Part shown: positions 19,276-62,968 of the stretch, one piece after another
How the letters are laid out: each line of letters opens with the position of its first letter
Numbering within the stretch: the first letter of the stretch is position 1
DNA from: Actinopolyspora mzabensis
GTDB taxonomy: Bacteria > Actinomycetota > Actinomycetes > Mycobacteriales > Pseudonocardiaceae
Length of the DNA stretch: 64,000 nt
NCBI RefSeq assembly: GCF_900101095.1
Contig: NZ_FNFM01000015.1
Coordinates: 1 to 64,000, forward strand
Direction: 5' to 3'
Notes under the pieces: model-generated
What the model was told of the DNA's origin: nothing
Database searches by the model: none
Seen by the model: only the letters and a program-made list of their open reading frames with translations
Translations under genes and position numbers: made by a program

Positions 19276-20016
19276 GTGGCTTGGAGCACGCGGCAGTTGG
19301 CAGAACTCGCGGGCACGACGCTGAAAACCGTCCGCCACTACCACGAGGTCGGACTGCTGGACGAGCCGGAACGGGCGGCGAACGGGTACAAGCGGTACCG
19401 CATCGGGCACCTGGTCCGACTGCTGCGGATCCGCAGGCTCGTCGACCTGGGCGTGCCGCTTTCCGAGATCGCTGTGATGGAGGAATCGGAGGAGAACACG
19501 GAGCAGTCCCTCCGCGCTTTGGACGACGAGCTGGCGGCGAGCATCGAACGGCAGCAGCGGATGCGGGAGGAGCTGGCCGTGATCCTGCGGCATCGTTCCC
19601 CGGCCGACCTGCCCGCGGGCTTCGACGAGGTCGCCGCCGAGCGCTCGGACGCCGACCGGGCCCTGCTGCTGATCTATTCGCGGGTCTTCGGCGACTCGGC
19701 GATGGCGGCGTTGTGGGAGATGCTGTCGCGACCTCCCACGCCGGTTGAGAAAGAGTTCGACGCCCTGCCCGCGGACGCGAGCGAGGACACTCGGAGTCGG
19801 CTGGCCGAGCGCTACTTGTCGGAGATCCGCCAGCACTACCAGAACCACCCCGCGCTGCTTGATCCGTGGGCGAAAGCCCGGCGGCGGGAAGAGACGTCCA
19901 GGGAGTCGGTCGTCGTCCAGGCGTTGCTGGAGTTGTACAACCCCGCCCAGCTCGATGTGCTGCGGCGCATCGACGCGCTGCACCCGAAGGACGGCACGAG
20001 CTCGGGCGGCGGGTGA
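19276..20016 (+). CDS. MerR family transcriptional regulator
   Basis: A 246-residue regulator. GTG 19276 follows GAGGAAGG at about 7 bases. The N-terminal winged helix-turn-helix reads STRQLAELAGTTLKTVRHYH, then EVGLLDEPERAANGYKRYR and IRRLVDLGVPLSEIAVM, the standard MerR DNA-binding layout, followed by the dimerisation coiled coil (about residues 75-110). The C-terminal part of about 130 residues is larger than in metal sensors and lacks a cysteine metal site, so a small organic ligand or protein signal is more likely. It is divergent from the CPBP protease. Confidence 0.9.
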   Translation: MAWSTRQLAELAGTTLKTVRHYHEVGLLDEPERAANGYKRYRIGHLVRLLRIRRLVDLGVPLSEIAVMEESEENTEQSLRALDDELAASIERQQRMREELAVILRHRSPADLPAGFDEVAAERSDADRALLLIYSRVFGDSAMAALWEMLSRPPTPVEKEFDALPADASEDTRSRLAERYLSEIRQHYQNHPALLDPWAKARRREETSRESVVVQALLELYNPAQLDVLRRIDALHPKDGTSSGGG

Positions 20017-25862: not shown

Positions 25863-26783
25863 TCGCGGCTTCCGCTCGAGCGTCGAGGACGCCCGATCAT
25901 CGGGAGAGCCGGTCCTCGGAAGGCCCGGCCGTCGGGACACGCGGTCCTCGGGACACGCGGCCGGCGGATTCCCGCGGGCTCTCGTTTCGGGAGGACCGAG
26001 GCGTTACTCGGCCACGGGGCCGAGGACCGGGGGCGGCCGTACGGGGGGCGTTACGACCGGCCCCGGCTGCCGCGATCGCCGATGGCGCGATATCGACGAG
26101 CTGCGACCTTTCCAGTGTGACCCCGAGGAACCCGAAAACGGTGCGATTTCGTTCCCAATAACCCCCGAACGGGGGTGTGATCGGCGGGCGGAACCGGTTC
26201 GAAATACGCGAATCGTGCGAGAGTGCTCAGCCTGATCCGCCGGGGGAACGGCAGACTCTCCGATGCCTGCCGTCCGCGTGGTAGCCGGGTAACCGTCCGG
26301 TGCGGTACGGGAGGCGGGTGACGAGTGTCAGCCCGGGGGTTCCCGGTCCGGTGGTGGTGGCCGTGTTCCCGGTTTCCCGGCGCGAGTGGTCGGCGCTGGT
26401 GGGGTTCGCGGTGGCCGCCCTCGGGACGGTTTCCGGGGGCACGAAGCTGGTGTCCACCGGTTCACCCAGCGAGAGCCGGTGGATCCGGGCGGTGCGGGCC
26501 AGGGGTGCTCGGGAGTGTCCGACGGTTCGCGAGTGCGTCACGTTTCGTTGTGTCATGCCTCCAGCCTGCTGGTCAGCACGAGGGAAGCGGATCCGTGCGG
26601 TTACTCATGAGTTACCTATTGTCGGCGGCCCGCTGGTTCGTTCGAGTGAAGTAAGTTCCCTCGCGTACCCGATTCCGCTCTCGCCGGGGACTGATCCCTG
26701 TTTCGTGCGAGCGGGTTTCGTGGTGCTGTGAGTCCGTACGGCGTCGGGAGGCTCGGCGTCGCGGGAACAGTCAGCCGAAAGGT
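25863..26783. other. Gene-poor region of about 920 bases before ptsI
   Basis: I see no well-supported gene. The start holds short imperfect repeats (GGGACACGCGG at about 25934 and 25951). A small inverted repeat ACCCCCGAACGGGGGT lies at 26161-26176. One weak minus-strand ORF at 26227-26556 is listed separately. The region upstream of ptsI from 26560 is AT-richer and should hold its promoter. Confidence 0.4.
26227..26556 (-). CDS. Possible small hypothetical protein
   Basis: A 109-codon ORF whose ATG is preceded by GGAGG at only one base, an unusually tight spacing. The product (MTQRNVTHSRTVGHSRAPLA onwards) has no signal peptide, membrane helix or motif I recognise and is rich in Arg, Thr and Pro. 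Third-position GC is about three quarters by eye, lower than in confident genes here. It may be spurious; a plus-strand ORF overlaps it. Confidence 0.25.
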   Translation of the reverse strand: MTQRNVTHSRTVGHSRAPLARTARIHRLSLGEPVDTSFVPPETVPRAATANPTSADHSRRETGNTATTTGPGTPGLTLVTRLPYRTGRLPGYHADGRHRRVCRSPGGSG

Positions 26784-47183: not shown

Positions 47184-48053
47184 TCACTCGGCCAGGCCGT
47201 GCAGCCGTCCCTTCAGGTGCGGTTTGCCCGAGGTGGAGTGCAGCGCGAAGAGCTTCGCCGCGTCCGACTCCCCGGGTTGTTCGGTGAAGCGCACCTCGGA
47301 GGGCAGCAGCACCGGCTTGGCGAACTCCACCTCGACCGTGCAGGCGTCGGGCAGTCTGCCCTCGAAGGCGGCGAGGCAGCGGGCCTTGGACCACATGCCG
47401 TGCGCGATCGTCCGGGGGAAGCCGAACGCCTTGGCGGTGAGCGGGTGCAGGTGGATCGGATTACGATCACCGGACACGGCCGCGTAGCGCCTGCCGAGGT
47501 TCGCGGGCAGCCGCCAGGCCGCGGTGGGGGCCTCGGCGGTCACCTCCGGAATTCCCTCGGGTCTGGGGACGGAGTCGTCCGAGGCGCCCCGCCGCAGGTA
47601 CGTGCTCGTCTCGCTCCAGACGAGCCGATCGTCGACGCTGGTCTCGGTGATCACGTCGAACTGCTGTCCCTTCGGGTGGCGGCGCTGGTTCGCCAGCCGC
47701 ACTCGCTGGGTCATCGAGTCGGTCACCGACACCGGTTCGTGCCGCGTGATGCGGTTCGCCACGTGCACCAGGCCGACCAGCGGGTACGGGAAGTCCCGGT
47801 CGGTCATCAGCCGCACGGCCAGCGGGAACGAGGTGATGTGCGGATAGGTGAGCGGCAGCTCGTCGCGGGTGCCGAATCCGCACAGCCTGTTGTAGGCGGC
47901 AAGGTGTTCCCGGTCGATCGTGATCCCGGAGCGGACGTACTCGCTGTAGGGGAGTTCGGCGTCCCGCCCGGCCCGCCGCAGCGGTGTGGTTCCCGCTGCC
48001 TTCAGATAGAGCGCGCCCAGGTTCGGCGACTCGCTCAGTTCCTCGGTCGGCAT
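47184..48053 (-). CDS. htdX: (R)-specific 3-hydroxyacyl dehydratase, MaoC type (HtdX-like)
   Basis: A 289-residue double-hotdog hydratase. The hydratase-2 motif is complete in the C-terminal half: RYAAVSGDRNPIHLHPLTAK with Asp and His, then AFGFPRTIAHGMWSK. The N-terminal half (LPLTYPHITSFPLAVRLMTD) is the non-catalytic hotdog. This matches HtdX (Rv0241c), which in M. tuberculosis is adjacent to fabG4 (Rv0242c) as here. It acts on 3-hydroxyacyl thioesters in fatty acid synthesis or oxidation. It follows fabG4 on the same strand by 151 bases. Confidence 0.92.
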   Translation of the reverse strand: MPTEELSESPNLGALYLKAAGTTPLRRAGRDAELPYSEYVRSGITIDREHLAAYNRLCGFGTRDELPLTYPHITSFPLAVRLMTDRDFPYPLVGLVHVANRITRHEPVSVTDSMTQRVRLANQRRHPKGQQFDVITETSVDDRLVWSETSTYLRRGASDDSVPRPEGIPEVTAEAPTAAWRLPANLGRRYAAVSGDRNPIHLHPLTAKAFGFPRTIAHGMWSKARCLAAFEGRLPDACTVEVEFAKPVLLPSEVRFTEQPGESDAAKLFALHSTSGKPHLKGRLHGLAE

Positions 48054-48204: not shown

Positions 48205-49542
48205 TCAAGCCCCCAACAGGCTCTGCCCGCACACGCGAATTACGTTGCCGTTGACTCCGGCCGACCCGGGATCGGCGTAGTAGGCGATGGTCTCGGCGAC
48301 GTCCACCGGCAGCCCGCCCTGCGAGAGGCTGTTCATCCTGCGGCCCGCCTCGCGCACGAACAGCGGTACGGCCGCGGTCATCGCGGTCTCGATGAATCCG
48401 GGAGCCACGGCGTTGATCGTCACACCGCGTTCCGCGGCGCGCGGGGCGAGTGCCTGCACGTGGCCGATCACCCCGGCCTTGGAGGTCGCGTAGTTCGCCT
48501 GCCCGACGTTGCCCGCGATGCCGCTGATGGAGGCGATCCCGACCAGCCTGCCGCCGCTGCGGAGCGGGGAGGAGTCGGCCAGCAGGGCGGTGTTGATCCG
48601 CTCCTGGGCGGCGAGGTTGACCCGCAGCACCGCTTCCCACTGGTCCCGGCTCATCCTGCCGATGGTCTTGTCCCGCGTGATGCCCGCGTTGTGCACCACG
48701 ATGTCGAGCCCGTCGTGCCGCTGTTCGACGTGTTCGATGAGTTGCCGGGGCGCGTCCTCGGCGGTGATGTCGAGCTGCAGCGTCGAACCGCCGATCCGGT
48801 TGGCCACCTCGGCCAGGTCCTCCCCCTGTGCGGGGACGTCCAGGCACACCACGTGGGCTCCGTCCCGGGCCAGGGTCTCGGCGATGGCGGCGCCGATGCC
48901 GCGGGAGGCGCCGGTGACCAGCGCGACCTTGTCGCGCAGTGGTCGCGCTGCGTCGACGGTGGGTGCTTCGGCGGCTCCGACGCGGATCACCTGGCCGGAG
49001 ACGAACGCCGATTTCGACGAGAGCAGGAAGCGCAGCGTGGAGTCGATCGCCCGCTCGCCGCCCCGGGAGACGTGGACCAGTTGGGCGGTGGCGCCGCGTT
49101 TGAGTTCCTTGCCCGCGGTGCGGACGAATCCTTCCAGCGCGCGCTGCGCGGTTCGCTCCGCGGGGTCGTCGATCTCCTCCGGCGGGGTGCCGAGCACGAT
49201 CAGCCTGCCGCACTTGCTCACTCGCCGGATCGTGGCGCCGAAGAACTCGTGGAGTTCCCCGAGTTCCGTGCTGCCCGCTATTCCGGTGGCGTCGAAGACC
49301 AGGGCCGCGTACTCGGCGTCGTCGTCCCGGCTCCGGTGTACCTCGGCGTCGGCCTCTCGCAGGGTCTCGGACACGGCTTTGCCGAGCCGGCCCCCTTCGG
49401 CTTCTCCGAGCAGTACGGGGCCGGAGACGAGCGGGTCACCCGGTCGGTACCTGCGCAGCGGGGTGGGGGTGGGCAGCCCGAGCCGGTTGGCCAACTGCCG
49501 CCCGTACCGGGATGTGACCAGCTTGCTGTACGGATCCGCCAT
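48205..49542 (-). CDS. fabG4: High-molecular-weight 3-ketoacyl reductase FabG4
   Basis: A 445-residue short-chain dehydrogenase with an extra N-terminal Rossmann-like domain (about 1-200), the HMwFabG architecture of mycobacterial FabG4 (Rv0242c). The C-terminal domain has VALVTGASRGIGAAIAETLA, VHNAGITRDKTIGRMS, the Ser of GIASISGIAGNVGQANYATS, and YxxxK with Tyr near 351. The family uses NADH on long 3-oxoacyl-CoA and can work in either direction. The start is ATG 49542, because GGAGGAG lies 9 bases upstream; in-frame ATG 49560 overlaps that site. It is divergent from fadA2, and an operator-like palindrome is in the gap. Confidence 0.94.
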   Translation of the reverse strand: MADPYSKLVTSRYGRQLANRLGLPTPTPLRRYRPGDPLVSGPVLLGEAEGGRLGKAVSETLREADAEVHRSRDDDAEYAALVFDATGIAGSTELGELHEFFGATIRRVSKCGRLIVLGTPPEEIDDPAERTAQRALEGFVRTAGKELKRGATAQLVHVSRGGERAIDSTLRFLLSSKSAFVSGQVIRVGAAEAPTVDAARPLRDKVALVTGASRGIGAAIAETLARDGAHVVCLDVPAQGEDLAEVANRIGGSTLQLDITAEDAPRQLIEHVEQRHDGLDIVVHNAGITRDKTIGRMSRDQWEAVLRVNLAAQERINTALLADSSPLRSGGRLVGIASISGIAGNVGQANYATSKAGVIGHVQALAPRAAERGVTINAVAPGFIETAMTAAVPLFVREAGRRMNSLSQGGLPVDVAETIAYYADPGSAGVNGNVIRVCGQSLLGA

Positions 49543-49585: not shown

Positions 49586-49599
49586 CTACCCGTCGGTAG
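49586..49599. promoter_or_regulatory. Operator-like palindrome between fabG4 and fadA2
   Basis: CTACCCGTCGGTAG has 5-bp arms (CTACC/GGTAG) around CGTC. It matches the pattern YTACYNNNCGGTAR, seen twice in the fadE5-like promoter near 62.9 kb. It is 44 bases from the fabG4 start and 68 from the fadA2 start, so one protein here could control both. Confidence 0.6.
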
Positions 49600-49667
49600 G
49601 TTGAGTTTCCAGTCAGGCCCGGCGCTGTTCCGGGTGTTCGTCGAGCAGCTGTGCGGAGGAATCGGCC

Positions 49668-50945
49668 ATGTCCACAACTCGCCGGGTCGCCATCGTCGGA
49701 GGCAACCGAATCCCGTTCGCACGTTCGGGTGGCCCCTACGCGCGTGCGTCCAATCAGGACATGCTCACCGCCGCTCTCGACGGCTTGGTGGCTCGTTACG
49801 GACTCTCCGGGCGGCGTGTCGGTGAGTTCGTCGCCGGGGCGGTACTCAAGCACAGCCGCGACTTCAACCTGGCACGCGAGGTCGTGCTCGGCTCCGGTCT
49901 CGACTCGCGTACTCCCGCGCACGACGTGCAGATGGCCTGTGCCACCGGCCTGGAGTCGGTCGTGTCCGTGGCGAACAAGATCGCTCTCGGGCAGCTCGAG
50001 TCCGGCATAGCGGGCGGGGTGGACTCGGCCAGCGACGCTCCGATCGAGCTCAACGACGAACTGCGCAGAGTGCTGTTGCGCGCCAACCACGCCAAGGGCA
50101 CCGGGGCCAAGCTGCGGGCGCTGACCGGCCTGCGGCCGGGACACGTCGTACCCGGTATCCCCCGCAACGAGGAACCCCGCACCGGACTCTCGATGGGGGA
50201 GCACGCCGCCAGGACCGCTGCGGCGTGGGGTGTCGAGCGGGCGGAGCAGGACGAGCTGGCCGCCCGCAGCCACCAGCGGCTCGGTGCCGCCTACGAGCGA
50301 GGGTTCTTCGAGGATCTGGTCACCCCGTTCCAGGGGCTCACACGTGATCAGAACCTGCGGCCGGATTCCTCGCCGGAAAAACTCGCCGAGCTCAAGCCCG
50401 TTTTCGGCCGGGGCGAGCAGGCCACCATGACCGCGGGCAACTCCACACCGCTCTCCGACGGCGCGGCCACGGTGCTGCTCGCCAGCGAGGAGTGGGCGCA
50501 GCGGCACCAGCTGCCGGTGTTGGCCTACCTCGGTGACTTCGTCTCCGAGGCGGTGGACTACGTCAGCGGTGACGAGGGGCTGTTGATGGCTCCCGCCTAC
50601 GCCGTACCGAGGCTGTTGGACCGGGTGGGCAGCTCGCTCGGCGAGTTCGACTTCTACGAGATCCACGAGGCATTCGCTTCCCAGGTGTTGTGCACGCTCC
50701 GGGCCTGGCGGGATCCCGAGTTCTGCGCCGAGCGGCTGGGCCGGGGTGAACCGCTGGGCGAGATCGACACCGACCGACTGAACGTGAACGGTTCCTCGCT
50801 CGCGGCCGGACATCCCTTCGCCGCGACCGGCGGGCGGATCGTGGCGACCTTGGCCAAGTTGTTGGCGGAGCGTGGGTCCGGTCGTGGACTCGTCTCCATC
50901 TGCGCGGCCGGTGGTCAGGGGCTCACCGCCGTCGTCGAACGCTGA
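49668..50945 (+). CDS. fadA2: Acetyl-CoA acetyltransferase/3-ketoacyl-CoA thiolase
   Basis: A 425-residue thiolase catalysing the last step of beta-oxidation. Nucleophile Cys near residue 91 in QMACATGLESVVSVANKIAL. EIHEAFASQVL carries a conserved Glu-Ala. VNGSSLAAGHPFAATGGRIV has the active His. SICAAGGQGLTAVVE has the second Cys. The length and EIHEAFASQ fit the FadI/FadA2 group (Rv0243). In M. tuberculosis fadA2 is divergent from fabG4, exactly as here, and next to fadE5; here the FadE5 homologue is 10 kb away. Confidence 0.95.
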   Translation: MSTTRRVAIVGGNRIPFARSGGPYARASNQDMLTAALDGLVARYGLSGRRVGEFVAGAVLKHSRDFNLAREVVLGSGLDSRTPAHDVQMACATGLESVVSVANKIALGQLESGIAGGVDSASDAPIELNDELRRVLLRANHAKGTGAKLRALTGLRPGHVVPGIPRNEEPRTGLSMGEHAARTAAAWGVERAEQDELAARSHQRLGAAYERGFFEDLVTPFQGLTRDQNLRPDSSPEKLAELKPVFGRGEQATMTAGNSTPLSDGAATVLLASEEWAQRHQLPVLAYLGDFVSEAVDYVSGDEGLLMAPAYAVPRLLDRVGSSLGEFDFYEIHEAFASQVLCTLRAWRDPEFCAERLGRGEPLGEIDTDRLNVNGSSLAAGHPFAATGGRIVATLAKLLAERGSGRGLVSICAAGGQGLTAVVER

Positions 50946-61025: not shown

Positions 61026-62870
61026 TCAGAACGCGGACTCGTCGATCTCCATCAGCGAGTTGTCGGTGTTCTCCACGATCTTCCGCCGCGAGGACAGTTC
61101 CGGCAGCACGTTCTTGGTGAAGAACCGGACCACCGCTACCTTGCCGTTGTAGAACGCCGCCTCCCTGCCGGTGGCTCCGGCGTCCAGCGCGCGCAGCGCG
61201 ATCTCGGCCTGACGCAGCAGCAGCCAGCCGATCAGCACGTCGCCCATGCTCATCAGCAGGGTCACGGCCTGCTGGCCGACCTTGTAGATCTCGTTGACGT
61301 CCTCCTGCGCGGAGGTCGCGAAGTTGAACAGCGCGCCGAGGATGCCCTGCGCGTCGTCCAGCGCCTGTCCGAGCAGCTCGCGCTCCTCCTTGAGCCGTTC
61401 GTCGGCCTCGGCGGAGTTCAGGGTCTGCTGGATCTCGTTGGCCACGTGGCCGATCGCCTGCCCGTTGTTCTTGACGATCTTGCGGAAGAAGAAGTCCTGC
61501 GCCTGGATCGCGGTGGTGCCCTCGTAGAGGCTGTCGATCTTGGCGTCGCGGATGTACTGCTCGATCGGGTAGTCCTGCAGGTAGCCCGAGCCGCCCAGGG
61601 TCTGCAGCGACAGCGTGAGCATCTCGTAGGCCCGTTCCGAACCGACACCCTTGACGATGGGCAGCAGCAGGTCGTTGATCTGCTCGTACAGGCTCGCTTC
61701 CTCACCGGAGGTCTTGGCCTGCGCGATGCGGTCCTGGTAGTCGGAGGTGTAGCAGTAGACGGCACGCAGTCCTTCCGCGTAGGCCTTCTGCAGCATCAGG
61801 ATGCGCCGCACGTCCGGGTGGTGTGTGATCGTGACGCGGGGGGCCGTCTTGTCCGTCGAGCGCGGCATGTCGGCGCTCTGCACCCGTTCCTTGGCGTACT
61901 CCAGTGCGTTGAGGTAGCCGGTGGACAGGGTGCCGATGGCCTTGGTGCCGACCATCATCCTGGCGTACTCGATGACCTGGAACATCTGCGCGATGCCGTC
62001 GTGCACCTCGCCCAGCAGCCAGCCCTTGGCCGGGGTGTCGTGCTGTCCGAAGGTGACCTCGCAGGTGGCCGAGACGTTGAGCCCCATCTTGTGCTCGACG
62101 TTGGTGACGTAGGCGCCGTTGCGCTCGCCGGGCTCACCGGTGCTGTCGTCGAAGTGGTACTTCGGCACCAGGAACAGGCTCAGCCCCTTGGTGCCGGGCT
62201 TGGGCTCGATGCCGGCGCCCTCGGGCCGGGCCAGCACCAGGTGCATGATGTTCTCGGTCATGTCCTGGTCCCCCGAGGTGATGAAGCGCTTGACTCCTTC
62301 GAGGTGCCAGCTGCCGTCCTCCTGCTTGACGGCCTTGGTGCGGCCCGCGCCCACGTCGGAACCGGCGTCGGGCTCGGTCAGCACCATCGTCGCGCCCCAG
62401 CCGCGATCGATCATCAGCTCGGCCCAGCGCTGCTGCTGCTCGGTGCCGTTCTCCCAGAGGATGGTGGCGAAGCTCGGTCCCGCCATGTACATGAAGATCG
62501 CGGGGTTGGATCCCAGCATGAGCTCGGCCGCCGCCCACTGCACCGACGGCGGGATGCCGTAGCCACCCAGCTCGTCGGGCAGGCTCAGCCGCCACCACTC
62601 ACCGTCCATGACCTGTTGGTAGGACTTCTTGAACCCCTCGGGCAGGGTGACCGAGGCGGTCTTGGGGTCGAACTGGGCCGGGTTGCGGTCGCCCTCCTCG
62701 AAGGAGTCGGCCAGCGGGCCGGTGGTGAGGGTGTTCAGCTCGGTGAGCACGCCCCGGGCCGAGTCCTCGTCGGCCTGTTCGAACGCGCCCTTGCCCAGCC
62801 GGTTCTGCACTTCGAACAGCTCGAAGAGGTTGAATTCGAGGTCGCGGATATTGCTCTTGTAGTGGCCCAT
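61026..62870 (-). CDS. fadE5: Acyl-CoA dehydrogenase, FadE5-like
   Basis: A 614-residue acyl-CoA dehydrogenase, the length of mycobacterial FadE5 (Rv0244c). ATG 62870 follows GAGGGAG. The N-terminal extension ([20 protein letters not shown]) is typical of the long bacterial FadE/AidB-like group. Middle domain: [20 protein letters not shown] and [17 protein letters not shown]-terminal domain: [20 protein letters not shown] and [15 protein letters not shown], where the Glu is the catalytic base. It performs the first step of beta-oxidation on a range of acyl-CoAs. Its promoter has two operator-like palindromes. In M. tuberculosis the gene adjoins fadA2. Confidence 0.94.
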
Positions 62871-62920: not shown

Positions 62921-62968
62921 TTACTCATCGGTAACCTGAGTATATTACCTACCGGTAACTTCTGCCAA
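62921..62968 (-). promoter_or_regulatory. fadE5 promoter with two operator-like palindromes
   Basis: On the minus strand, -35 TTGGCA (plus 62963-62968) and -10 TATACT (plus 62939-62944) are separated by 18 bases. The spacer contains TTACCTACCGGTAA (plus strand, 62945-62958) and a second copy, TTACTCATCGGTAA (62921-62934), covers the expected start of transcription. The centres are 24 bases apart. The arrangement is that of a TetR-type repressor site. Confidence 0.75.

Follow-up and report, generated by a model that had tools for sequence, protein, structure and literature searches.

The regulon of FdmR (Rv0238) in mycobacteria is reportedly the subject of a 2021 study by Dong et al. in PNAS. 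According to the available excerpts of two other reports, FdmR is a repressor of genes for fatty-acid degradation that responds to long-chain acyl-CoA (PMC12403877) and a key regulator of fadE5 (PMC9262360); our literature search on Rv0238 returned no description of a binding motif, the original FdmR paper aside. A related mycobacterial TetR protein that senses long-chain acyl-CoA is FasR (Rv3208), which published excerpts present as an activator of fas-acpS and whose crystal oligonucleotide carries two imperfect TAC-N6-GTA copies placed 13 bp apart. MftR, which is associated with mycofactocin in mycobacteria, is likewise a TetR protein that binds long-chain acyl-CoA; its operator, given in the available excerpt as T-N2-GGCA-N5-TGCC-N2-A, is unlike the motif studied here, and MftR was rejected as a reader of this motif on those grounds.

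Our study compares with these systems a set of palindromic sites in Actinopolyspora mzabensis. The likeness to the FdmR regulon consists of an orthologous TetR protein, fadE5 as a target, and the same palindrome at the mycobacterial fadA2/fabG4 and fadE5 promoters; the differences are that FdmR of A. mzabensis lies outside the htdX-fabG4/fadA2 neighbourhood, beside an SCP2-acyl-CoA dehydrogenase operon, and that the same fadE5 operator extends to genomes in which FdmR was not detected. FasR also has an orthologue in this organism, and its crystal operator contains related TAC-N6-GTA half-sites; in contrast to its role as an activator of fas-acpS, the fadE5 sites occupy the positions expected of a repressor and lie ahead of degradation genes. 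We consider it rather probable that TetR repressors of the FdmR/FasR kind, which sense acyl-CoA, use the site between fabG4 and fadA2 as their operator, and that FdmR (C14:458661-459239) is its likeliest reader in A. mzabensis. The earlier note on this DNA knew of no named regulator for the motif, a statement that is not supported, as published excerpts describe FdmR (Rv0238) as regulating fadE5 and other fatty-acid catabolism genes. The features considered, all within the 64-kb stretch of DNA that was analysed (the window), are as follows.

47184 to 48053, minus strand: htdX homologue, a MaoC-type hydratase (gene family assignment)
48205 to 49542, minus strand: fabG4 homologue, an SDR 3-oxoacyl reductase (NCBIfam NF006110, above cut-off)
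49586 to 49599, no strand assigned: candidate operator CTACCCGTCGGTAG, in the gap between divergent fabG4 (minus) and fadA2 (plus), exact coordinates checked
49668 to 50945, plus strand: fadA2 homologue, a thiolase (gene family assignment)
61026 to 62870, minus strand: fadE5 homologue, an acyl-CoA dehydrogenase (gene family assignment)
62921 to 62934, no strand assigned: fadE5 operator 2, covering the predicted transcription start, its first position offset by 24 bp from that of operator 1
62939 to 62944, minus strand: predicted fadE5 -10 box TATACT, directly 3' of operator 1 (sequence reading and consensus scan)
62945 to 62958, no strand assigned: fadE5 operator 1, filling the spacer of the predicted -35/-10 pair
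62963 to 62968, minus strand: predicted fadE5 -35 box TTGGCA (sequence reading and consensus scan)

The three sites had been proposed to share a motif, and they do: CTACCCGTCGGTAG at 49586-49599 and both fadE5 sites (62921-62934 and 62945-62958) conform to the pattern YTACYNNNCGGTAR given in the earlier note, and its symmetric form YTACYNNNNRGTAR is matched in the window by these three sites and no others, whereas none of 50 dinucleotide shuffles of the window contained it. When up to one mismatch is allowed, YTACYNNNCGGTAR has 8 matches at 5 places in the window against 1.75 expected, a number reached in 0 of 100 shuffles. The gene families assigned previously (MaoC hydratase, SDR reductase, thiolase, and acyl-CoA dehydrogenase) were also right, and the separation of fabG4/fadA2 from fadE5 is about 10 kb, as had been stated; elsewhere the distance between fadA2 and fadE5 can be larger, reaching about 33 kb in one genome (G027).

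The site at 49586-49599 lies 43 bp ahead of the ATG of fabG4 (49542, minus strand) and 68 bp ahead of that of fadA2 (49668), and it is probably bound by repressors that sense fatty compounds. Our consensus scan returned no promoter-like pair at 49586. On the plus strand, the palindrome and its downstream bases (49586-49609) form a weak terminator-like match of 5 pairs, for which a terminator role is unlikely because it lies between two divergent genes. In the genomes of family f1 (L117, L118, L120, L122, L123, and L125), the operator between fabG4 and fadA2 is bordered symmetrically by TAAC and GTTA, and TAnnnT-like boxes possibly begin 2 bp outside it on either side; to judge from this arrangement, a single operator may serve two face-to-face promoters in these genomes.

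The promoter of fadE5 has a more elaborate geometry. Its two sites lie 50 and 74 bp ahead of the ATG (62870, minus strand), and the order on the minus strand is TTGGCA, 18 bp that hold operator 1, TATACT, and operator 2; the consensus scan of the window independently recovered the same -35/-10 pair, with 10 of 12 matching positions and 0.0 expected. Among 61 upstream regions of fadE5, 41 have tandem sites, 15 have other arrangements, and 5 have none. In 35 of the 41 tandem loci, a TTG is followed by 16-19 bp with operator 1 in the spacer and then by [TC]AnnnT, while both boxes occur at a rate of 0.0003 at 20,000 random control positions; it is important to note that the rule placing the -10 box directly after operator 1 was fixed after the alignment had been inspected. 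An earlier free scan for -10 and -35 boxes, which chose overlapping hexamers, had found both in just 10 of the 41 tandem loci. The mycobacterial fadE5 contexts shown retain a TATAGT-like box and operator 2. The spacing of paired sites is also narrow, being 22-27 bp in 26 of 27 pairs and 24 or 25 bp in 20 of them. As read from the sequence, a protein bound at these sites would cover the spacer of the promoter as well as the start, as expected of a repressor.

Special care is needed in judging how often the motif occurs in the complete genome (5.0 Mb in 24 contigs). The symmetric pattern YTACYNNNNRGTAR has 35 matches and its own reversed control 8, but two palindromes of the same composition have 42 and 29 matches, and 34 and 52 when read backwards. 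Because same-composition palindromes occur 42 and 29 times, the genome count alone is not evidence, and we rejected it as such. It is the location of the matches and the breadth of their conservation that go beyond chance. The same script called genes around the 32 sites outside the window, which form 29 loci, and around 30 control sites out of 71. The site is intergenic in 29/29 loci of A. mzabensis compared with 11/30 control loci (Fisher 5e-8), and it lies within 400 bp before a gene in 28/29 compared with 8/30 (Fisher 2e-8). The earlier note held that a motif at background frequency would speak against it; the raw count is indeed not above the controls, whereas the placement departs clearly from them.

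With the window included, the 35 sites occupy 32 intergenic regions. They precede, in addition to fadE5 and fabG4/fadA2, genes for a thiolase, FadB-like, FadD-like, and EtfD-like proteins, EtfB, and an acyl-CoA dehydrogenase, as well as three TetR genes. The regions assigned by Pfam, together with the two of the window, are listed below.

Window: fadE5 region, acyl-CoA/electron-transfer class
Window: fabG4/fadA2 region, acyl-CoA/electron-transfer class
L016: acyl-CoA thioesterase
L026: 3-hydroxyacyl-CoA dehydrogenase
L027: thiolase, two sites
L028 and L043: two AMP-binding ligases
L035: iron-sulfur reductase of the EtfD kind
L037: 4HBT thioesterase
L038: AidB-type acyl-CoA dehydrogenase
L042: EtfB
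L034, L039, and L040: three regions with TetR genes that carry a TetR_C_46 domain
L018: one region with a DUF4442 gene

Acyl-CoA enzymes or electron-transfer partners thus follow 11 of the 32 regions but only 1 of 30 control genes (p 0.003), in a comparison where control genes were assigned at E 1e-10 with one gene per site and site genes at E 1e-5 with up to two genes per site; counted per gene, 12/43 are acyl-CoA or electron-transfer genes (p 0.011 against the control). The regulon is consequently not small, contrary to what had been suggested. A scan of the genome had been expected to yield hits before fatty-acid genes and before one TetR gene; many promoters of acyl-CoA and TetR genes were indeed recovered, but with three TetR genes instead of one. 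Another 17 of the 32 regions have no clear fatty-acid link and precede, for example, genes for a subtilase, glycosyltransferases, a sigma factor, and ATP synthase subunit A. The Pfam analysis covered the flanking genes except L031:2197-2472, L033:1577-1804, and L043:2102-2506; the site of L024 is not followed by a gene. The EtfD label of L035 is based on the Pfam pattern (CCG, Fer4) and on Rv0338c, which literature listings name as EtfD. At L040 (G000:C18:111500-115500), the site at 1988 lies between the TetR_C_46 gene and a divergent FMO-type monooxygenase gene; in the mycobacterium-type genome G007, a site (L297) is likewise found 19 bp upstream of an FMO-type gene, next to which an alpha/beta hydrolase is encoded.

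The conservation of the fadE5 sites extends far beyond this genome. Of the 81 genomes searched in the order, 77 carry fadE5, and among 40 fadE5 loci the motif precedes the gene in 35, with at least two motifs in 27; the five that lack it are without exception second copies of fadE5 in f8 genomes. Outside the order, fadE5 is present in 44 of 56 genomes, and in a sample of 20 of these 44 the motif lies within 300 bp in 20/20, mostly as a tandem pair in which one operator falls in the promoter spacer and the other on the predicted start. In the mycobacterial set, which was chosen by similarity to FdmR (best 80 of 562 matches, 77/80 titles naming mycobacteria or Mycobacteriaceae), the motif precedes fadA2 in 66/67 usable loci and fadE5 in 40/40, and among these best 80 it is always TTACCCACCAGTAA at both genes; loci with a missing or incomplete flank were not counted (13/80 for fadA2 and 40/80 for fadE5). 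The order htdX-fabG4/fadA2-fadE5 is seen in named mycobacteria of this set, whose 80 loci do not include M. tuberculosis. With one operator type conserved before both in relatives, the proposal that it joins fabG4/fadA2 with fadE5 is upheld at the level of sequence, and their co-regulation appears well supported. In the G007 genome, the 15 loci listed include sites before fadA2, fadE5, an EtfD-like gene (two sites 25 bp apart), isocitrate lyase, an MlaE permease, and unlinked genes. In the literature searched, the class-wide fadE5 operator, the promoter geometry that it forms part of, and the arguments in favour of FasR being an older reader are new, but the FdmR paper may hold part of this. 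It follows from one operator type marking beta-oxidation promoters (fadE5, EtfB, EtfD-like, and thiolases) in the genomes sampled across the class that membership in the regulon can be proposed from sequence.

The mycobacterial FdmR was located by position, as the TetR beyond htdX in loci ordered htdX-fabG4/fadA2-fadE5; from this position and the Rv numbering, we take it to be Rv0238. Its closest match in A. mzabensis is C14:458661-459239 (43% identity), which falls inside the FdmR clade with support of 98/95 in a first midpoint-rooted tree of 49 TetR proteins (without L114, L265, L271, and L273, which had no TetR match) and 99/88 in a second of 69, from which L270 (a long branch, left out) and L342 (no match) are absent; the lesser TetR matches were fetched in part (20 of the rows without a locus). 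The clade includes families f1, f8, f13, and f15, and also f33 in the second tree. Two sites lie ahead of the predicted start of the FdmR gene of A. mzabensis, at distances of 50 and 66 bp; the divergent SCP2-acyl-CoA dehydrogenase operon shares them. A strict site is found ahead of 8 of 17 FdmR-clade genes; upstream of L085, L086, L087, and L098, nothing close to a site was seen. In 13 of 15 genomes, the distance between FdmR and fadA2 is 2.3-7.6 kb; in A. mzabensis and G062, two genomes of the same genus, it is on a contig other than that of htdX-fabG4/fadA2. The gene fadA2 is present in 28 of 40 genomes, with a site upstream in 22 of 29 fadA2 loci, and this site accompanies FdmR: it is found in 15/15 genomes with FdmR and in 1/6 without it, an association that is no more than a correlation, since the genomes are related and the gene order differs in the six without FdmR, where a neighbour gene of about 445 residues, probably fabG4, lies downstream of fadA2 on the same strand.

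FdmR cannot be the sole reader of the fadE5 sites across the class because these sites are present in genomes without it. Only relatives of at most 32% identity were found in families f2, f3, f4, f5, f7, f9, f10, f11, f12, and f16 and in G070 (f15), and the same holds for 10 of 12 genomes outside the order; within the order, the fadE5 sites are kept in 15 of the 15 FdmR-less genomes examined. One of the genomes without FdmR, G049, has sites before EtfB, an EtfD-like gene, two acyl-CoA dehydrogenases, fasR, and unlinked genes. Two genomes of 1.3-1.4 Mb (G122 and G104, the genes of the latter named by likeness to those of the former) each have three TetR genes (TetR_N), one of the FasR clade and none of them FdmR. 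In both, sites precede fadE5, EtfB, and thiolase, and another sits between fabH and the fab gene after it; G122 has a further site before an enoyl-CoA hydratase gene, and its FasR-clade gene is flanked by ThiF-rhodanese and DEAD-helicase genes. The fabH-fab site (L350 and L353, at 1501 in both) would link the same operator to fatty-acid synthesis. These findings raise two evolutionary questions, namely, whether the synthesis regulator FasR and the degradation regulator FdmR are paralogues with a DNA code still in common, and which protein reads the operator in genomes that lack FdmR.

FasR is the foremost candidate for that role and must also be weighed in A. mzabensis itself, where its orthologue (C15:472787-473383, L039; match to PDB 6o6p, E 1.7e-63), which was a second match of the mycobacterial FdmR, could be the main reader, with FdmR sharing or fine-tuning the regulon. 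FasR is present where FdmR is absent while the fadE5 sites persist, its gene in A. mzabensis has a site 61 bp upstream, and the recognition stretch SKPxxY is common to both proteins. Because the reduced genomes keep both sites and FasR, the crystal oligonucleotide holds TAC-N6-GTA copies (in the published excerpt), and SKPxxY is shared, FasR is likely the reader in reduced and other FdmR-less genomes and, as far as the sequences indicate, the older one. Yet the copies in the crystal oligonucleotide differ from the motif by 1 and 2 mismatches, 2/7 and 4/8 of the sites in the reduced genomes have no clear link, the words fadE5 and oxidation appear in neither of two FasR papers examined for them, and the fadA2 site tracks FdmR instead. 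A strict site was found before just 5 of 33 FasR-clade genes, and self-regulation of FasR as a general rule was rejected on that count. We therefore regard FasR as an unlikely main reader in A. mzabensis; if it were, it would be an old class-wide repressor of beta-oxidation despite being a fas activator in mycobacteria. The broader scenario, in which FasR was by origin such a repressor, acting through the tandem operator of the fadE5 promoter, and FdmR arose later as a paralogue, took charge of a portion of the regulon, and added the fabG4/fadA2 site, is put forward tentatively, at slightly less than an even chance.

Some other reader, whether the third paralogue by the FMO gene (L040), the fourth by the thioesterase (L037), or a regulator from a different family, seems improbable. 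All four FdmR-like TetR genes of A. mzabensis have a site within 1.5 kb, against an expectation of about 2% per gene, and the L037 kind is widespread in the second tree (11 rows from 10 families); in that tree, however, the rows of the L040 clade come from f1 alone, and the single FdmR-like match of G122 is FasR, the sites being kept nonetheless. Chance palindromes would account for a raw count of 35, which is inside the range of the control palindromes, but they are already contradicted by the placement, the tandem spacing, and the conservation at fadE5 (35/40 loci in the order and 20/20 sampled outside it), and this explanation can for practical purposes be set aside.

Under the preferred reading, in which FdmR is the likeliest reader in A. 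mzabensis, we infer binding, repression, ligand release, and the pairing of paralogues with sites from what the sequences themselves display: the sites, their placement and conservation, the fadE5 geometry, and FdmR orthology. Without fatty acids, a repressor dimer on the site at 49586 would block the divergent promoters of fabG4-htdX and fadA2, and at fadE5 two dimers would block the -35/-10 spacer and the start site. Long-chain acyl-CoA would free the repressor from its sites, and acyl-CoA dehydrogenase, hydratase, reductase, thiolase, EtfB, and the EtfD-like protein would then be induced jointly.

The reversed control also varies among genomes: it outnumbers the motif in the two genomes of 1.3-1.4 Mb (28 and 37 against 7 and 8), and the counts are 40 against 37 in G007 and 8 against 15 in G049. 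Unlike in A. mzabensis, some sites fall inside called genes, namely, 3 of 15 in G049 and 1 of the 15 listed loci in G007. In the latter genome, three sites lie within 240 bp (G007:C1:1276163-1276402, L300-L302) between divergent genes without a Pfam match. In the window of A. mzabensis, TTACTCATGAGTTA at 26601-26614 scores 14.7 with the site matrix, compared with 15.4 for the fabG4/fadA2 site. Finally, one match of a control palindrome, TACTCCACAGAGTA (TAC-N8-GTA; G000:C4:54379-54392, L242), is found 27 bp upstream of a gene for an acyl-CoA dehydrogenase and may be a wider-spaced relative of the operator.
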